From assembly GCF_008326305.1 (NCBI RefSeq), contig NZ_BIXY01000075.1:1-35859 (forward strand): a stretch of 35,859 nt of DNA. The letters are read 5' to 3'. How positions within the stretch are numbered: position 1 is the first letter of the stretch; every line of letters begins with the position of its first letter. The notes beneath the pieces are model-generated. The model worked only from the letters and a program-made list of their open reading frames with translations, did not search any database and was not told where the DNA came from. Made by a program: the position numbers and the translations under genes. This DNA comes from Dictyobacter arantiisoli (GTDB lineage: Bacteria > Chloroflexota > Ktedonobacteria > Ktedonobacterales > Ktedonobacteraceae). Positions 272 through 8,499 of the stretch are shown one piece after another.

Positions 272-2368
272 CTATTCAGCCAACAATTCGTTAATTTTAG
301 CTTCAATAGTGCTGGCTGTTGGATAAAAAACCTCTTCCTCAGCGGTGCTATAAGGCGCTGGAGGAGCAGGTAAGGCAGAGATAAAAGCGGGCGTTCCATC
401 TAAATCATAGAAACAATGCTGGACAATCCAGGAATGGAGATGACGTCCGAAGCTTGTTAGATCAATTTCTTCAGTGACGACAATCACCCGGTTCGCCTCT
501 TTCACAGCAGCAGCGACGGCGGCTTCATCAAAAGGAGCCAGCGTACGCAGATCAACAACTTCAATGGAGATGCCGGCACGTCTGGCTACGTTTACTGCGG
601 CTGAGCAAGCTTCCAGTACCATAGTTCCCCAGGCCATAATCGCGACACGGAGCTTTCCCTGGCCTAAACGTAGGCGGCGCGCTTTCCCAAGCGGTAGCGT
701 ATAGTATCCCTCAGGCACACTCCAGAACTCGGCCATTTCGGGAATAATTGTTCCTGACTCGTCTTTTGGTGGCTCAGAACGATAGAGTCGTCCACGTTCC
801 AGAAAAACCACGGGGGAGAGGGCCCGTGCTGCCTCCAGGAGCAAGCCTTTCGCATCAAAAGGCGAGGCGGGACAAACGGTAATCAGGCCCGGTGTGTTTG
901 TGAACCACTGTTCACCTGTATTCGAGTGCCCATATGCGCCACCACCCGCAGAACTACTGGAGATTGGGCCGCCGCCGCCACTACCAGATTTTGTACGGAT
1001 CAAGAGTGGTGAATCCCATTTCCCATTGGTTTGATACGGGAAACGCGCAGCCAGACGAATGGTCTGCGCCGACGATTGGTAATAATCGACAAACTGAATC
1101 TCCGCACAGCGCGCTTTGCCTTCCCGTAAACCTGCCCCTGAAACGATACCAACGATCACCTGTTCATTGAGTGGACTGCTAATCGCACGTCCTGGGACCT
1201 GCTTGACCAGAGAAGCAGTAGCGCCAAAAACGCCCCCTTTGGGACTTCCTACGTCCTGCCCATAAACAAAAAAACCTGGATCTCGCTGTGCTAACTCAAC
1301 TAATGCCTCGTTGATCGCGCTTAACATAGTCAGAGTGCGCACTGTGCCACGAGGAGTATTCTCATGCCATTCTGGTATCTTGACCACGTGCTCTAATACA
1401 CGCTCAGATGTAGGTTCCGGTTCCTGAATGATAATCTGTTCCGCACGTTCAATTTCCACACGAATCTCTTTGCGTATTCGCTCAATATCAGCTTCTTGCA
1501 TCAGACCCTGTTCAACCAACCAGTGCCCAAACTTCTTTACAGGATCTTTTGTCGCGCTTGTCAACGCAATTTCTTCTTTTGTGCGATACGAACGAATATC
1601 AGTACTACTTGAATGGGCATCTAATAAACCAAGGCGCAAATGCATCAGTGCGGGACCCTTGCCAGCACGAATATGTTGAACCAGGCGGCAAGACGCTTCA
1701 TAGGTCGCAATCACATCCGAGCCATCTACCTCTTCAGCATAGACACCGGCAGCTTTCGACCACTCAACTAATGAACCAGACCATTGGTGTCCACCTTTGA
1801 ACGTAATGGCCCAATCGTTATCTTCGATAATCATTAACACTGGGAGTTGATGAATACCTGCTTGTCGAAATAATGCAGTAAAATCATTCGTCGCTGCTCC
1901 ACCATCACCAGTAGAACAAACTATTAATTCATTGCCTTTTTGTTGTTTGATTGAGAAACCTACACCGCCAGCAAAGGGCCCGAGGGCCGCGACCTCACTT
2001 ACTCCGGGTAAAATATGAAACTCTTTACTTGCATAATGAGCTGGCATATTACGGCCAGCATTCATTGGCCCGGTAGTACGCGCATATGCTTCGCGTAATG
2101 GTCCATAGATATCATCAGTACGTTGTAGCCAGGCTGCCAGATCACGATAATATAAAGCCAGCCAATCATCTTCATTCAGCGCCGCTACCACCGCCGCCAT
2201 GGCCTCGTGGCCTGCACAACCAATATAAAAAGGAAATCGGCCTTGCGTCTTACGAGTTTTCAACAAGTCATTCATGACTCGAGCAGTTACCATTGTGCGG
2301 TAGAGCGCAATTACGTCCAGCGACTCTGCTGGTGTTTCCGTCTCGGTTGCGCGAACATTTATTGTCAT
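272..2368 (-). CDS. Fused alpha/beta E1 component of a 2-oxoacid dehydrogenase (thiamine-diphosphate dependent)
   Basis: The 698-residue protein joins both E1 chains of a pyruvate or branched-chain 2-oxoacid dehydrogenase. The N-terminal half is E1-alpha: a G-C-x-G-H-E-A segment near residues 50-55, the thiamine-diphosphate motif G-D-G at 154-156 with its paired Asn at 184 (E-D-N-D), and an H-S-S-S-T-D ... S-Y-R phosphorylation-type loop. From about residue 345 the sequence is E1-beta (A-L-x-E-L-A-Q-R-D-P, then V-Y-G-Q-D-V-G, P-L-N-E-Q and the transketolase C-terminal domain). Such enzymes decarboxylate a 2-oxoacid and pass the acyl group to the lipoyl arm of E2. No E2 gene is in the window, and the substrate cannot be told from sequence. 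GGAGG lies about 13 nt before the ATG. A promoter is seen at 2453-2482. Confidence 0.9.
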   Translation of the reverse strand: MTINVRATETETPAESLDVIALYRTMVTARVMNDLLKTRKTQGRFPFYIGCAGHEAMAAVVAALNEDDWLALYYRDLAAWLQRTDDIYGPLREAYARTTGPMNAGRNMPAHYASKEFHILPGVSEVAALGPFAGGVGFSIKQQKGNELIVCSTGDGGAATNDFTALFRQAGIHQLPVLMIIEDNDWAITFKGGHQWSGSLVEWSKAAGVYAEEVDGSDVIATYEASCRLVQHIRAGKGPALMHLRLGLLDAHSSSTDIRSYRTKEEIALTSATKDPVKKFGHWLVEQGLMQEADIERIRKEIRVEIERAEQIIIQEPEPTSERVLEHVVKIPEWHENTPRGTVRTLTMLSAINEALVELAQRDPGFFVYGQDVGSPKGGVFGATASLVKQVPGRAISSPLNEQVIVGIVSGAGLREGKARCAEIQFVDYYQSSAQTIRLAARFPYQTNGKWDSPLLIRTKSGSGGGGPISSSSAGGGAYGHSNTGEQWFTNTPGLITVCPASPFDAKGLLLEAARALSPVVFLERGRLYRSEPPKDESGTIIPEMAEFWSVPEGYYTLPLGKARRLRLGQGKLRVAIMAWGTMVLEACSAAVNVARRAGISIEVVDLRTLAPFDEAAVAAAVKEANRVIVVTEEIDLTSFGRHLHSWIVQHCFYDLDGTPAFISALPAPPAPYSTAEEEVFYPTASTIEAKINELLAE

Positions 2369-2452
2369 TTTGTGCTATTGCCTCCACATAGTTGTCTGCA
2401 CTGACGCTGTAGGCTTCATCGATGCTCCCAGATAATAATAAATCACAACACC

Positions 2453-2482
2453 ATTATAATGGGTGACGACAGCGAAAAGCAA
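2453..2482 (-). promoter_or_regulatory. Predicted promoter of the E1 fusion gene, overlapping a palindrome
   Basis: On the minus strand a -35 TTGCTT (2482-2477) and -10 TATAAT (2458-2453) are separated by 18 bp, about 80 bp upstream of the E1 start. The -10 lies inside the 12-bp palindrome CCATTATAATGG (2451-2462), extended on both sides by CAC/GTG, which is a possible repressor site. Confidence 0.5.
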
Positions 2483-2607
2483 TGAGCAGAAATTTTCTAC
2501 AGCGCTGTTTTTCCATCCTTTATAAGAGAGTTTTTTTCCGAGCGAAACGTTGCAGTCAAAAAAATAGTGAGCTGCATCTGGCAAATACAAACAGTCATAG
2601 CACTCAC

Positions 2608-2637
2608 TGGACATTCTCGCCGCTTGAGCACTATAAT
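2608..2637 (+). promoter_or_regulatory. Predicted promoter of the orphan E1-alpha / Nudix-like pair
   Basis: A TGGACA -35 (2608-2613) and a perfect TATAAT -10 (2632-2637) with 18-bp spacing point into the gene starting at 2733, leaving an untranslated leader of roughly 90 nt. The unit is therefore divergent from the E1 fusion gene and shares a 364-bp intergenic region with it. Confidence 0.55.
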
Positions 2638-2732
2638 GTGTCTAACTATTTTTTCATCGGAACATGTCTCACCAGTGAAATACTGGTCGATGGCAGAGAA
2701 AACAACAGGTACCCAAAGAGATGCAATAGGAC

Positions 2733-3710
2733 ATGATGCATACAGATCCATCTTCGATAGTTCTGCAAGATCTCTACACAAAGATGCTCTTAACACGCAT
2801 CGTCGATAATTGCATGTTGTGGCTCTATACAGAAGGGTACATTGATTTTGTAAGCAGTTGTCGTGGGCACGAAGCCACTCAGGTAGGAAGCGCAACCTGT
2901 ATTCAGGTTGGACAAGATTTTACCTTGCCCTTTTACCGCGATCTGGGTGTCGTGCTGACCATTGGAATGACCCCATACGAAATATTTCGGACAAGCTTGC
3001 AAACGCAACGTCAGCAAGCGGGTAGCCCGGATGGTTTCCAGGCACCACTCCAGTATTGGGGCTACCATAAACACAACACCATAACAGGATCAGCCCCCGT
3101 TGCCACACAACTGTTGCATGCAGCAGGCATTGCTTTTGCCTGTAAACTCCGCAAAGCAGCGGTGGTTACGGTAGCTTATTGCGGCGATGATGCCACCACC
3201 GAGCCAGATTTTCAGGAAGGAATTCAATTCGCCGCCATGCATCAACTACCTGTTGTTTTTATCTGTGAGCAAGATTGTACACAATTTTACTCAACCAAAC
3301 AATCTACCACCTCGCAAGCACCTTCGTGTCTGCATGCCGAGGCATTGCCGCCTCACCTCCTCTATCAACGCATCGATGGTATGGACAGTGTTGCTGTCTA
3401 TAGTGCGACACTCCGTGCAATGCAAGCTGCACGCGAGGGACATGGTCCGACACTCTTGGAAATGGCTGTTACCCGCTCATTACCCACAGTACCTCTGCCT
3501 CAATCTGAGGACCCCTCCACAGTGGTACATGGTTTGCCTTCCCTATCCAACGCCGGAACGCTTTTGGATCCCCTTGTGCGCTGTCAGCACACCCTGCAAG
3601 AGCGAGGCATGTGGAATGACGAATGGGCCACCCAACTTTCCAAACGCATGATGACTGAGGTTGAACGTGCACTCCAGGATGCGCTACGTGATACCTTACA
3701 GTCAAAATGA
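2733..3710 (+). CDS. Orphan E1-alpha-like protein with altered thiamine-diphosphate motif
   Basis: The 325-residue protein follows the E1-alpha fold throughout: an S-C-R-G-H-E-A segment near 42-48, the F-Y-R-D-L-G region near 67-72, and the region D-F-Q-E-G-I-Q-F-A-A-M-H-Q-L-P-V-V near 159-175. The cofactor motif is changed: G-D-G has become G-D-D (151-153), and the E-N-N that completes the site has become E-Q-D-C (179-182). The His/Ser/Tyr phosphorylation-type loop is not recognisable. No E1-beta gene is adjacent; instead a Nudix-like gene follows 17 bp later. Either of two ATGs (2733 or 2736) may be used, the second having better spacing from AGGA. It may be a non-catalytic paralogue or an enzyme with changed chemistry. 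Low similarity to the 272-2368 E1 makes a recent duplication unlikely. Confidence 0.75.
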   Translation: MMHTDPSSIVLQDLYTKMLLTRIVDNCMLWLYTEGYIDFVSSCRGHEATQVGSATCIQVGQDFTLPFYRDLGVVLTIGMTPYEIFRTSLQTQRQQAGSPDGFQAPLQYWGYHKHNTITGSAPVATQLLHAAGIAFACKLRKAAVVTVAYCGDDATTEPDFQEGIQFAAMHQLPVVFICEQDCTQFYSTKQSTTSQAPSCLHAEALPPHLLYQRIDGMDSVAVYSATLRAMQAAREGHGPTLLEMAVTRSLPTVPLPQSEDPSTVVHGLPSLSNAGTLLDPLVRCQHTLQERGMWNDEWATQLSKRMMTEVERALQDALRDTLQSK

Positions 3711-3727
3711 GAAAGCCGAGTTGAAAC

Positions 3728-4417
3728 ATGACATATTCACATCTTGAAAATATTGATGTGCGGCATGTAACGACCAATCAGCCTTTTTACGCAAGCACAC
3801 TCATTATTCAACAACAACAGTTGGTGGTAGCTTTATATGCAGACTCTCTGGCTACCGCAAAAGGGAATACATCTCCTATTTATCGTGTCAAAAGTATTGG
3901 TGGAGAGCAACAACCAGGAGAAAGCATATGGGATTGTGCACTCAGGGAAGCACAATCCAAACTAAAATTGCCGCTAAAATTGCTTCATACCCCCATTACC
4001 TATTTTCATGATGTCGATGACGGAGATATTTATTTACTTCAATGCATCGATAGTATTGCGCCCCTGCTCCTCGAACGTCAAAGCAACCTGTATCCCTATG
4101 CCTCTATCCGTCCTGGTCTACCAGCAGGGCCTTATACCTATGGTGGGCTTTTTCTTGCACAACCCCTGCAACCCATCATCCAGGATAGTAATATCGGAGG
4201 CTTGCTCTCTGTGCCTTTAGTCCAGTGTTCGCTCCTGCTTCAACAACCCACATTAGAAGTAGTATTACAACAAGGGGCATCATTACTGGGAGAGACAACC
4301 TTTCCCCTCAATAGTCAAATCCGGATACATCCCTGGGAAACATTGGCTCTCACGCTCCCTTTACTGGAACGACATCCTGAAGTGTGGATCACATCAGACA
4401 GCAACCAGAATAAATAG
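3728..4417 (+). CDS. Nudix-like protein with degenerate Nudix box
   Basis: The 229-residue protein has an N-terminal half arranged like a Nudix hydrolase: a beta strand, then a G-G-E-Q-Q-P-G-E-S-I-W-D-C-A-L-R-E segment near residues 58-74. The box starts well (G-G-x-x-x-P-G-E ... R-E) but ends in A-Q-S-K-L-K-L where active enzymes have x-x-E-E-x-G-U, so the metal-binding E-E pair and the Gly are missing. The remaining ~120 residues match nothing I recognise. It sits 17 bp after the E1-alpha-like gene, very probably co-transcribed. A role as a nucleotide-binding or regulatory partner is speculation. Only the resemblance to the Nudix fold is supported. Confidence 0.6.
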   Translation: MTYSHLENIDVRHVTTNQPFYASTLIIQQQQLVVALYADSLATAKGNTSPIYRVKSIGGEQQPGESIWDCALREAQSKLKLPLKLLHTPITYFHDVDDGDIYLLQCIDSIAPLLLERQSNLYPYASIRPGLPAGPYTYGGLFLAQPLQPIIQDSNIGGLLSVPLVQCSLLLQQPTLEVVLQQGASLLGETTFPLNSQIRIHPWETLALTLPLLERHPEVWITSDSNQNK

Positions 4418-4465
4418 AGACCAATAACATCTTCACGCAATCGCTATAAGAAAAGTGGAAAGGGA

Positions 4466-4511
4466 GATGTGGTGCTTATTTGTTCTCTTTACGTTGCAAA
4501 TAAGCACCACA
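4466..4511. terminator. Perfect 16-bp inverted repeat between the Nudix-like gene and beta-galactosidase
   Basis: Arms 4466-4481 (ATGTGGTGCTTATTTG) and 4496-4511 pair perfectly around a 14-nt loop, 49 bp after the Nudix-like stop codon. There is no U-tract afterwards, so it is either a factor-assisted terminator, a processing site or a protein-binding palindrome. The rest of 4418-4773 holds only the promoter/operator signals described next. Confidence 0.5.
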
Positions 4512-4593
4512 TACACGGGGGACGCGTTACGCATTTCTAGAAAAACCTCTACCTGCGAGTTTAGCGGATCTTTCCCAGAAAGCAATAAAGCTG

Positions 4594-4656
4594 TTAAAAA
4601 ACCTGATGAGTTTTGATATAATGAAAAGGATCTGTCCCCGACAGATTTATCTGACA
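4594..4656 (+). promoter_or_regulatory. Predicted beta-galactosidase promoter with overlapping palindromes
   Basis: A weak -35 (TTAAAA, 4594-4599) and perfect TATAAT (4617-4622) are spaced by 17 bp. Just downstream, where a repressor would block initiation, are two overlapping palindromes: TCTGTC-CCC-GACAGA (4631-4645) and CAGAT-TT-ATCTG (4642-4653), followed by a further CTGACA and CTCTGTCG. This is a plausible operator for a sugar-responsive regulator, but no regulator gene is adjacent. Confidence 0.4.
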
Positions 4657-4773
4657 ATGATATTCTCTGTCGAATGATCATACATGTATCTATCACCATC
4701 TATCAATCGCTCTTAGGACGGAGCCTGATGATAATGGCGTCAGTCACTTTTTACGAGGAAGTAGGATTTTTCT

Positions 4774-6789
4774 ATGCAGCACCCATTACCAGGTCACATC
4801 CTTTATGGTGGCGACTATAATCCAGAGCAATGGTCTGAAGATATCTGGCAAGAAGATATGCGTTTAATGAAACTTGCCAATGTCAATATGGTCTCAATTA
4901 ATATTTTTTCCTGGACCATGCTAGAGCCAGCAGCCGGCCAGTATCATTTTGAACAGCTTGATCGCATTATGGATCTTCTGTATGAAAATGGTATTGCGGC
5001 TGACCTGGCTACCGCAACTGCCTCACCCCCAACCTGGATGAGTCGTCTCTATCCTTCAATGCTCCCAGTTACGCGCGAGGGTGTCCGCCTGACACATGGT
5101 TCGCGGCAACATTACTGTCCCAACAGTCCTGATTATCGCCGTAAAGGGGCAGCACTGGTACAACGTCTGGCGGAACGCTACGCCAAGCATCCTGCGCTTA
5201 AGATGTGGCATTTAAATAATGAATATGGCTGCCATGTCAATCAATGTTACTGTGACAACTGCGCAGCCGCATTCCGTGTCTGGCTACAGGAGCGCTATCA
5301 GACCCTGGATGTTGTCAATAGTACCTGGGGCACAACCTTCTGGAGCCAGCGCTACTACGACTGGGAAGATATTCTGCCCCCACGTCTAAGTTCCGCCCAG
5401 AATAATCCTGGTCAAGTACTTGATTACTGGCGCTTCATGAATGACTCGCTGTTGGGTTTGTATCGTTTAGAGGAAGACATTCTGCGTGCAGTAGCTCCCA
5501 CGATTCCCTTAACCACTAACCTGATGGTCGCCTTCAAACCGGTTGATGTCTATGACTGGGCCAAACATATGGATATTGTGTCGTTTGATATGTATCCAGA
5601 ACCCGAAGCTCTGCCATCCTGGAATGCCTTGCATCATGATATTATGCGCTCGGCAAAAGGTGGCCGCCCTCATATGGTGATGGAACAGAGCCCCAGTGAA
5701 GTCAACTGGCAGCCGCAAAATCCACACAAACGCCCGGGACAAATGCGCCTTCATTCCTTGCAAACGGTTGCGCATGGTGGTGATGGTGTCCTCTTCTTCC
5801 AGTGGAGACAATCCAAAACAGGCGCTGAAATGTATCATGCCGCCGTGGTGACACATGAAGGCAATGAGCATAATCGCATCTTCAGGCAGGCCGCACAGGT
5901 CGGTGCCGAACTGGCCAAACTTTCACCGATTGTCGCAGGATCACGCATCCAGGCCGATGTCGCTATTTTACTGGATTGGGATACCTGGTGGGCGGTTGAA
6001 TATCTGCCAGGACCCAGTGACCGTATCAAATATATGGAGCTGGTCGGAAAATACTATCATGCCTTCCATCAGCAGAATGTCAATATCGATGTTGTCCGAC
6101 CCGATAGCGATTTAAGTAAGTATCGCGTAGTGGTCGCGCCTATGCTTCATATGCTGCATCGCGGTGTCGCACAGAATCTGGAACAATTTGTGTCTGCCGG
6201 TGGTACACTCCTGACAACCTTCTACAGCGGTATTGTGGATGAAAATAATCATGCTGCATTGGGTGGCTATCCAGGAGAACTACGCTCCTTATTGGGAGTT
6301 CATGTAGAGGAGTTTGATCCATTGACTCCTGAAATGCATAATGAACTTGTGATCAAAGAAGGCTCTCTGGCTGGTACGTACAATACCGATCTATGGGGTG
6401 AACTGGTTCATCTCGAGGGAGCACAGGCTATCGGCGTCTTTGGTAGCGATTATTATGCCCGAAAAGCAGCGCTGACAGTCAACAAATTTGGGGCTGGTCA
6501 TGCTTACTATCTGGCTACCTTAAATGATGCAGACTTCCTGGTTAAACTGGCCGCAGAACTGTGCCAGCAGGCGGGCATAAAACCAACCCTGCCTATTTCA
6601 AGCGAAATTGAAGTTACGAAACGCGTCACAGAGACAGGGAAAGAAATTTACTTCTTGCTCAATCATACGCAGCAAGCAAAGCAAATCACATTGCCCCACG
6701 GCACCTTTACCTCGTTGCTGGATGACTCATCTGTTCAGGGTGAGATCACTATTCCAGCCATGGATGCACTCGTGTTACAGGCTGAATAG
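4774..6789 (+). CDS. Beta-galactosidase, glycoside hydrolase family 42
   Basis: The 671-residue protein has typical GH42 length and layout: a TIM-barrel catalytic domain (about 1-390), a trimerisation domain with a Rossmann-like core (about 395-600) and a small C-terminal beta domain. The acid/base is Glu150 (N-N-E-Y-G) and the nucleophile Glu304 (V-M-E-Q-S-P). The zinc cysteines known in several GH42 enzymes are all present: Cys115 and C-Y-C-D-N-C at 158-163. There is no signal peptide, so it acts in the cytoplasm on imported galactosides. AGGA lies 7 nt before the ATG. It is monocistronic between its own promoter and the terminator at 6807-6840. The nearby sugar ABC operon is on the opposite strand. 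Confidence 0.93.
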   Translation: MQHPLPGHILYGGDYNPEQWSEDIWQEDMRLMKLANVNMVSINIFSWTMLEPAAGQYHFEQLDRIMDLLYENGIAADLATATASPPTWMSRLYPSMLPVTREGVRLTHGSRQHYCPNSPDYRRKGAALVQRLAERYAKHPALKMWHLNNEYGCHVNQCYCDNCAAAFRVWLQERYQTLDVVNSTWGTTFWSQRYYDWEDILPPRLSSAQNNPGQVLDYWRFMNDSLLGLYRLEEDILRAVAPTIPLTTNLMVAFKPVDVYDWAKHMDIVSFDMYPEPEALPSWNALHHDIMRSAKGGRPHMVMEQSPSEVNWQPQNPHKRPGQMRLHSLQTVAHGGDGVLFFQWRQSKTGAEMYHAAVVTHEGNEHNRIFRQAAQVGAELAKLSPIVAGSRIQADVAILLDWDTWWAVEYLPGPSDRIKYMELVGKYYHAFHQQNVNIDVVRPDSDLSKYRVVVAPMLHMLHRGVAQNLEQFVSAGGTLLTTFYSGIVDENNHAALGGYPGELRSLLGVHVEEFDPLTPEMHNELVIKEGSLAGTYNTDLWGELVHLEGAQAIGVFGSDYYARKAALTVNKFGAGHAYYLATLNDADFLVKLAAELCQQAGIKPTLPISSEIEVTKRVTETGKEIYFLLNHTQQAKQITLPHGTFTSLLDDSSVQGEITIPAMDALVLQAE

Positions 6790-6871: not shown

Positions 6872-8263
6872 CTATTCAATGTATCCAAACAGGTTATTTA
6901 AAGATTCAGCCAGCGTCGGATGAGCGAAGATACCATCCCGCAAGGTTGTATAGGGTAGTTTACCAAGCATGGCGATCTCGAGCATAGACATAATCTCTCC
7001 ACCCTCAAGACCAAGGATACTGGCTCCCAGGATCTGTTCATTGTCCGCGTCCACAATCACTTTCATCACACCCCGAGACTCATCGACTTCCAGTGCCCGC
7101 GCGACCGAACTCATGGGCATCTTTGCCACTTTAATATGACGGTTCTGCTGGCGTGCCTCAGTTTCTGTGAGGCCAACACGCCCAAGTTGAGGATCAATGA
7201 ACACAGTATAGATTGTGGCACGACCTTTGATACTGGCCTGCCCATCTTCGATTAAATTAGTGCGGAGAATACGGAAGTCATCATAAGATATATGGGTAAA
7301 GGCAGGGCCACCCTTTACATCACCCAGAGCATAAATGCCTGGCACATTCGTCTCCAGCCGCTCGTTTACCTCGATATATCCCTTCTCATTGACATTCACG
7401 CCTGCCCGCTCTAAATGGAGCAGATCCGTGTTTGGCGTACGTCCGGCAGCGCCTAACAAATGGGAGCCGGTTATGACGCGCTCCCCCTGCTTGCCGCGGA
7501 CAGTTAATTGAATCTGGCCATTACTGTCAGTAGCAACTTTAACGGCAGAGGTTTCTAATAGCACATCAATGCCATCTTCACGTAAGATTTTGGTGACTTC
7601 CTCAGCAATATCAGCATCCTCGTGAGACAAAACCTGTTTTCCGCGCTGGATAATCGTTACCTGACTGCCGAAGCGCCGGAACATCTGACCAAATTCCAGG
7701 CCCACATAGCCACCACCTAATACCAATAAATGCTCAGGTACCTGGTCCAGTTCCATCACCGAGGTAGAGTTTAGAACAGGAACCGTATCAATACCATCCA
7801 CACGCGCAGGAGATGGACGATCACCCACGTTTAAACAAATAGTATCTGCCGTCAATTGACGCACTTCACCACTCTGCAAGCGCACCTCAATCACCTTGGG
7901 ACGCACAAAGGAAGCCTCGCCCATCAAAAGATCCACACCTTTCGAACTCTCGATACGATGCTGACTTCCATCCCGGAAGCTATTAACGATTTCACGTTTC
8001 CGCTTCCGTACCACTGACATATCAACGCTAATCGGGCCCGTTTCTACCCCATAGTCGGCGGCGCGTCTGGCTAAATAAGCAACCCGAGCGCTGGCAACCA
8101 TCGTCTTGGTCGGAGAACATCCTTCATTGATACAGGTTCCTCCGACATGCTCACGCTCAATAATTGCCGTCTTCTTACCAGCCTGCCCAAATGCCGTAGC
8201 CAGCGGACCACCAGCCTGACCAGAGCCAATAATAATAACATCATAACGGGTAACGTCTGTCAT
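6872..8263 (-). CDS. FAD-dependent pyridine nucleotide-disulfide oxidoreductase (lipoamide dehydrogenase / mercuric reductase type)
   Basis: The 463-residue protein has the full family layout: FAD-binding G-S-G-Q-A-G-G (13-19), the redox-active disulfide in G-G-T-C-I-N-E-G-C (Cys44/Cys49), an NAD(P) motif G-G-G-Y-V-G-L-E-F, the second FAD motif Y-A-L-G-D-V, and the C-terminal dimerisation domain with catalytic H-P-T-L-A-E. The vicinal C-terminal cysteines and the N-terminal metal-binding domain of true MerA are absent. It is therefore either a lipoamide dehydrogenase or a related oxidoreductase of unknown substrate. It could serve as E3 for the E1 at 272-2368, but no E2 is seen. The start was chosen because GAGGA lies 7 nt before this ATG; an upstream in-frame ATG lacks that. 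Confidence 0.88.
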   Translation of the reverse strand: MTDVTRYDVIIIGSGQAGGPLATAFGQAGKKTAIIEREHVGGTCINEGCSPTKTMVASARVAYLARRAADYGVETGPISVDMSVVRKRKREIVNSFRDGSQHRIESSKGVDLLMGEASFVRPKVIEVRLQSGEVRQLTADTICLNVGDRPSPARVDGIDTVPVLNSTSVMELDQVPEHLLVLGGGYVGLEFGQMFRRFGSQVTIIQRGKQVLSHEDADIAEEVTKILREDGIDVLLETSAVKVATDSNGQIQLTVRGKQGERVITGSHLLGAAGRTPNTDLLHLERAGVNVNEKGYIEVNERLETNVPGIYALGDVKGGPAFTHISYDDFRILRTNLIEDGQASIKGRATIYTVFIDPQLGRVGLTETEARQQNRHIKVAKMPMSSVARALEVDESRGVMKVIVDADNEQILGASILGLEGGEIMSMLEIAMLGKLPYTTLRDGIFAHPTLAESLNNLFGYIE

Positions 8264-8499
8264 TCTATACTCCTCATTTGATAGCACAGTAAAATAGATA
8301 CAACTCTCTGCAATCCCTTACCGACACGTCTAAACACAACTAAAGAGAGACAATGCTATCTCTATAACGTATAACACAGATCACTCGGTGTCTTTTCAAG
8401 GCCAGATACATTCATCTCGCGCTTGAATGTTCACAGAGATTTCGCGTCAGAGCAACAGGAGAAGGGATGGGTAACAGATACACCACTTTTTGAACACAA

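Follow-up and report, generated by a model that had tools for sequence, protein, structure and literature searches.

The analysed window, a whole contig of 35,859 nucleotides, comes from the 7.2-Mb genome of a Dictyobacter, a soil-dwelling genus of the Ktedonobacteria (Chloroflexota). It carries a gene for an E1-alpha-like protein (325 aa; 2733..3710, + strand) lacking both the catalytic-His loop and the N-N of the TPP motif. On a narrow balance of probability, the product is a maintained, catalytically dead E1-alpha paralogue that acts on a divergently encoded E1-alpha/beta fusion, either as an accessory subunit or as a regulator sensing a cofactor, with a Nudix partner in some genera. The gene itself was identified from Pfam, an AlphaFold model, active-site columns, and dN/dS. 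The fusion (698 aa; 272..2368, - strand) contains the Pfam domains E1_dh, Transket_pyr, and Transketolase_C and, according to the motif columns, keeps GDG, the second Asn, and the catalytic-His loop. The Nudix-fold protein (229 aa; 3728..4417, + strand), in which the E-E of the Nudix box is changed to S-K, was recognized from its AlphaFold model, fold match, and box alignment. The initial annotation of a two-gene unit with intact frames was correct: the E1-alpha-like and Nudix-like genes are separated by 17 bp, both frames are open, and they are probably expressed as a single transcript. Further downstream are genes for a GH42 beta-galactosidase (4774-6789, + strand) and a pyridine-nucleotide-disulphide oxidoreductase of the dihydrolipoamide-dehydrogenase type (6872-8287, - strand).

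Within the family-level group to which the window belongs, 21 of 29 genomes have an orthologue of the E1-alpha-like gene (~50-72% identity); the remaining matches in the class were canonical E1-alpha proteins with 33-42% identity. The orthologues formed one clade (support 100/100) on a long stem of 1.28 changes per column, and its candidate sister, a two-subunit E1-alpha family (f3) of the same order, was weakly supported (69/89). According to the coordinates, gene and fusion are arranged head-to-head in all 21 of these genomes, a conserved linkage such as a regulatory partner of the fusion would show. The co-occurrence check suggested with the initial annotation thus revealed a conserved neighbourhood, in which the Nudix gene, where present, follows the E1-alpha-like gene (7/7). 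A scan of 84,980 species with the two most conserved peptides retrieved 18 proteins that belong to the E1-alpha-like clade, exclusively from Ktedonobacterales, and 29 ordinary E1-alpha proteins. An E1-beta adjoined or was fused at 27/29 ordinary loci outside Ktedonobacterales; the two exceptions are partial or run off the end of a contig. The other two E1-alpha genes of the window's genome (C12 and C19) are each accompanied by an E1-beta and an E2. In the neighbourhoods examined, no cognate E1-beta was found beside the E1-alpha-like gene. The earlier remark that E1-beta is missing therefore holds for a free subunit only, since the neighbouring fusion includes a complete E1-beta domain, the only beta nearby.

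The E1-alpha-like protein scored 164 bits against Pfam E1_dh (cut-off 22). Its AlphaFold model (pLDDT 84.7) gave the best fold matches to E1-alpha subunits of the BCKDH/PDH type (Thermus 1umb, human BCKDH 1x7z, and Geobacillus PDH 1w85), with the same full-length fold (Foldseek E 5e-21, TM 0.75). It shares with them 30% identity, the structural invariants, and the Tyr-Arg of the diphosphate site, but lacks the N-N of the TPP motif, the catalytic-His/phosphorylation loop, and a partner E1-beta gene. The low-confidence stretches of the model (190-192, 252-258, and 261-272) correspond to the changed loops. The active-site comparison covered 14 E1-alpha-like, 4 fusion, and 32 canonical E1-alpha sequences. 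The choice of columns was guided by structures of human BCKDH E1, in which Glu193, Asn222, and Tyr224 lie at Mg and His291 is catalytic. The latter residue is also named in the titles of structures 1ols/1olx.

The Tyr-Arg pair of the diphosphate site was present in 14/14 E1-alpha-like proteins (Tyr in 30/32 canonical ones), and the acidic residue of GDG in 13/14 (canonical, 32/32). The first Asn of the TPP-motif pair was found in 0/14 E1-alpha-like versus 29/32 canonical proteins and is Asp in the fusion. The Mg-ligand Asn was kept in 1/14 E1-alpha-like proteins (Asp in 10) versus 32/32 canonical proteins and is Asn in the fusion, while the catalytic His occurred in 0/14, compared with 26/32 canonical proteins and 4/4 fusions. 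The third GDG residue was Gly in 7/14 and Asp in 4/14 (canonical: Gly in 30/32), GDD being common to all four close Dictyobacter genomes, and one protein, from Thermosporothrix, has lost the motif (DHA). The TPP motif of the window protein reads GDD...QD in place of GDG...NN with its Mg ligands. The replacements first noted, G-D-D for G-D-G and E-Q-D-C for E-N-N, are both as described, and the active-site damage is real and confined to that site. GDD is not the defining lesion, as half of the proteins (7/14) keep GDG, and GDG to GDD is a local change only; the N-N pair and the catalytic-His/phosphorylation loop are what is lost family-wide, the loop having been overlooked. In canonical E1-alpha, 36 columns reach 90% conservation or more; among these, the clear losses (G153, G158, N165, N180, and N181) fall in or beside the TPP motif, and Y68, R69, G45, E47, D62, G78, F160, E162, G216, R234, G238, P239, D279, and P280 are retained. 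Because nearly all canonical invariants outside the active site are kept, the alignment argues for targeted loss, not general decay. From these residues we infer a protein without catalysis. The Asp replacing the Mg-binding Asn could still hold a metal, so TPP binding and some chemistry would remain within its reach.

A retained TPP- or diphosphate-binding pocket would also suit a free-standing sensor that signals how much cofactor is present, its target being something else than the fusion. The diphosphate-site Tyr-Arg in all orthologues and the nearly invariant Asp of GDG favour this explanation, as does the precedent of yeast Thi3, a non-enzymatic pyruvate-decarboxylase relative that binds TPP and acts as a sensor (PMC11304959). 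Both are relatives of TPP enzymes that lost catalysis and became regulators, presumably so for the E1-alpha-like protein; Thi3 differs in belonging to another TPP-enzyme family and in working with transcription factors, the likeness being one of function without shared ancestry. Such a sensor is unlikely here, given that the E1-alpha-like protein has no DNA-binding or signalling domain and that its invariant position beside the fusion points to the fusion enzyme. Still less probable is an altered living enzyme, in which the E1-alpha-like protein replaces the alpha domain of the fusion and uses its E1-beta domain for other chemistry or another substrate. The preserved fold and TPP diphosphate site, the potentially metal-binding N to D change, and purifying selection are consistent with this, but the catalytic-His loop (HSS...YR), including its YR motif, is gone in every orthologue, GDG itself has disappeared in Thermosporothrix, and there is no free beta subunit.

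Selection was estimated as dN/dS by the Nei-Gojobori method. For the E1-alpha-like gene, values of 0.08-0.22 were obtained in six pairs of relatives and of 0.13-0.16 between the window and members of its genus; in several of the latter pairs dS is saturated or nearly so, and the ratio is a bound only. Unsaturated pairs within Thermogemmatispora (dS 0.18-0.41) gave 0.08-0.11. The ratio was ~0.1 for the Nudix-like gene where dS was unsaturated and 0.04-0.07 for the fusion. Thus, both genes of the pair are well below 1, and the earlier impression that they look maintained, not decaying, was borne out. The loss of catalytic residues throughout the clade under purifying selection is the mark of a pseudoenzyme.

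The promoter of the E1-alpha-like gene had been called good, and it is a strong match (TGGACA-18-TATAAT, 11/12; 2608..2637, + strand) conserved in relatives together with the 95-nt 5' leader (2638..2732, + strand), which contains a small hairpin CCAG...CTGG. In four Dictyobacter species, promoter and leader are 86-97% identical, compared with 39-63% for the control spacer between the Nudix and GH42 genes. Purifying selection is seen here too, as in the two proteins. The -10 element is invariant in the four Dictyobacter genomes, and TATAAT was found 5' of the gene in most orthologues among the matches listed. A riboswitch in this leader was considered and is unsupported, since a search of 2200-4900 gave no Rfam match and the leader folds no better than its shuffles (z 0.10, no significant overall fold).

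These data bear on whether the gene is what is left of a two-subunit E1, fading slowly after the loss of its beta subunit. The decay of the active site, the continued drift of GDG in several genomes, and at least two complete losses of the gene agree with fading, but dN/dS stays at ~0.1 across several genera, the frames are open in all genomes except one indel-ridden assembly, and promoter and leader are conserved, so that a remnant is very improbable. In the assembly of D. kobayashii, the E1-alpha-like, fusion, and GH42 genes are split by frame breaks, and in that of D. vulcani the GH42 gene is; both are probably sequencing errors.

The fusion is nearly class-wide (44/47 genomes above the threshold, a count that includes G028 and G029, which have only a 33% match and no true fusion). 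The family genomes without the E1-alpha-like gene are G028 and G029, G030, the Ktedonobacter-like G031-G034, and G046, in which the contig ends within the fusion. In G030 and the four Ktedonobacter-type genomes, the fusion is present without the E1-alpha-like gene and the flanking gene order is largely kept; the gene is cleanly absent from a preserved fusion-GH42 order in 3/4 Ktedonobacter-like genomes, and a search for its remnant in Ktedonobacter found none. In the fusion tree, several inner branches of which are weak, genomes without the gene are nested among carriers in two places, and the history reads as one gain and two independent losses. As the gene would have been lost twice with the fusion kept, it appears accessory, not essential. 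No fusion column separates the genomes with and without it, i.e., no fusion residues track its presence. The initial proposal that the divergent fusion could be the target gained strong positional support (21/21) and none from covariation. That Ktedonobacter does without the gene and that no fusion sites covary with it speak against a structural subunit of the obligate kind; partners that are not obligate need not leave covarying fusion residues. Since the fusion survives alone and none of its residues covaries, the E1-alpha-like protein is at most accessory to it. That the protein instead serves the co-directional GH42 beta-galactosidase or its neighbours, the adjacency to the fusion being an accident of long-kept gene order, is also very unlikely: GH42 starts 6 to 36 bp behind the E1-alpha-like gene in several genomes, but Ktedonobacter keeps GH42 beside the fusion without the E1-alpha-like gene, and GH42 is absent near that gene in several genomes still having the fusion.

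The Nudix-like protein scored 17.9 bits against Pfam NUDIX, below the cut-off of 21.1. The structure prediction revealed a Nudix fold (pLDDT 81.7; VIA Z 11.6 to an ADP-ribose diphosphatase, 142 residues aligned), and its fold matches were ADP-ribose/MutT-type Nudix proteins. Whole-genome search yielded the gene in seven genomes (five of the Dictyobacter-type genus, G019, and Ktedonosporobacter), in all of which (7/7) it lies directly 3' of the E1-alpha-like gene, the two genes overlapping by 4 bp at one extreme and lying 60 bp apart at the other. A pattern search with the protein in the 85,000-species collection found no relative. In 14/21 genomes, the E1-alpha-like gene occurs without it, and the supposed pair is thus not obligate. 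The window box, GEQQPGE-SIWDCAL-REAQSKLK, departs from GX5EX7REUXEEXGU in E-E to S-K and G to K. The protein shares the fold of ADP-ribose pyrophosphatase/MutT-type hydrolases (1g0s and 1su2) but lacks both glutamates of EExG. The first reading, a half-kept box without its EExG end, is true of the window and does not extend to an ancestrally dead box, as three relatives have it intact or nearly so: REAYEELG, the complete form, in strain brp13 (L057/L090), REAREELS in Ktedonosporobacter, and REAHEELC in G019. Three Dictyobacter species have REAQEKLQ, REAWEKLK, or RGAKEKLQ; all four close Dictyobacter genomes share the change of the second Glu to Lys, to which the window has added Glu-to-Ser. 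The box thus decays stepwise within Dictyobacter. The most conserved stretch of the protein, LLERQSNLYPYxxxRPGLPxGxYTY, lies outside the box; it matched no Pfam or NCBIfam model and would fit a kept ligand pocket. Distant single Nudix proteins of Tengunoibacter and a Ktedonobacter-like genome (L012 and L013; 33% over ~70 aa) lack the ERQSNLYPY stretch and are a possible source family of the gene.

The favoured explanation, a maintained accessory or regulatory pseudo-E1-alpha, would operate as follows. The protein has kept the fold of E1-alpha and, in the TPP pocket, the Tyr-Arg that binds diphosphate, but neither the Asn-Asn pair nor the catalytic-His loop. It may bind the fusion enzyme via retained E1-alpha surfaces, or it may titrate or report TPP/Mg. 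The Nudix-fold protein, encoded downstream in Dictyobacter, Ktedonosporobacter, and one further genus, would descend from a hydrolase and is a probable ligand binder in those species of Dictyobacter that are nearest to the window. A physical partnership with the fusion and ligand sensing by the system are both presumed; neighbouring genes need not have products that interact, and GH42, too, lies in this block, close behind the E1-alpha-like gene. More tentatively, a non-catalytic E1-alpha might gate or tune E1 in response to the state of TPP or nucleotides, and in some genera it would be coupled to a Nudix protein changing stepwise from hydrolase to sensor; this would be a bacterial pseudo-subunit control of E1.

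Non-catalytic E2-like subunits are known in 2-oxoacid dehydrogenase complexes (the E3-binding protein). No description of a maintained non-catalytic E1-alpha was found in the open-access literature. If the pseudo-E1-alpha regulates the fusion, it would represent a new kind of control point where 2-oxoacids enter central metabolism. For the Nudix protein, a parallel is the NUDT9-H domain of TRPM2, a protein that a nucleotide ligand activates; invertebrates have a canonical box in this domain and vertebrates a vestigial one (PMC6461439). The likeness lies in this contrast between lineages, and the difference is that NUDT9-H is a eukaryotic channel domain. At a single locus, the Nudix gene presents boxes ranging from intact to broken, a natural series suited to testing the change from enzyme to sensor.

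The fusion has its own conserved promoter and leader (2369..2480, - strand), identified by comparison with relatives, in which GTCARYGYAGAC (motif core 2394-2405) stands ahead of the Shine-Dalgarno sequence GGAGG. This motif or a close form precedes the fusion in many family members and in f2 (L136), and with that spacing to GGAGG it occurs as a single copy in the window's genome; it is a possible site of post-transcriptional control, with no counterpart in Rfam. A 14-codon uORF, MKPTASVQTTMWRQ* (2375-2419, - strand), ends 6 nt before the fusion start and is kept in four Dictyobacter genomes. It was rejected as a leader peptide, and the conserved element is more likely the nucleotide motif, because the frame or start of the uORF is broken in L057 and L044. 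Elsewhere in the genome, C8 (L144, 4455-6600) carries an apparently fragmented 2-oxoacid dehydrogenase, with a short piece resembling E1 and pieces of E2; either the operon is broken or the assembly has errors.
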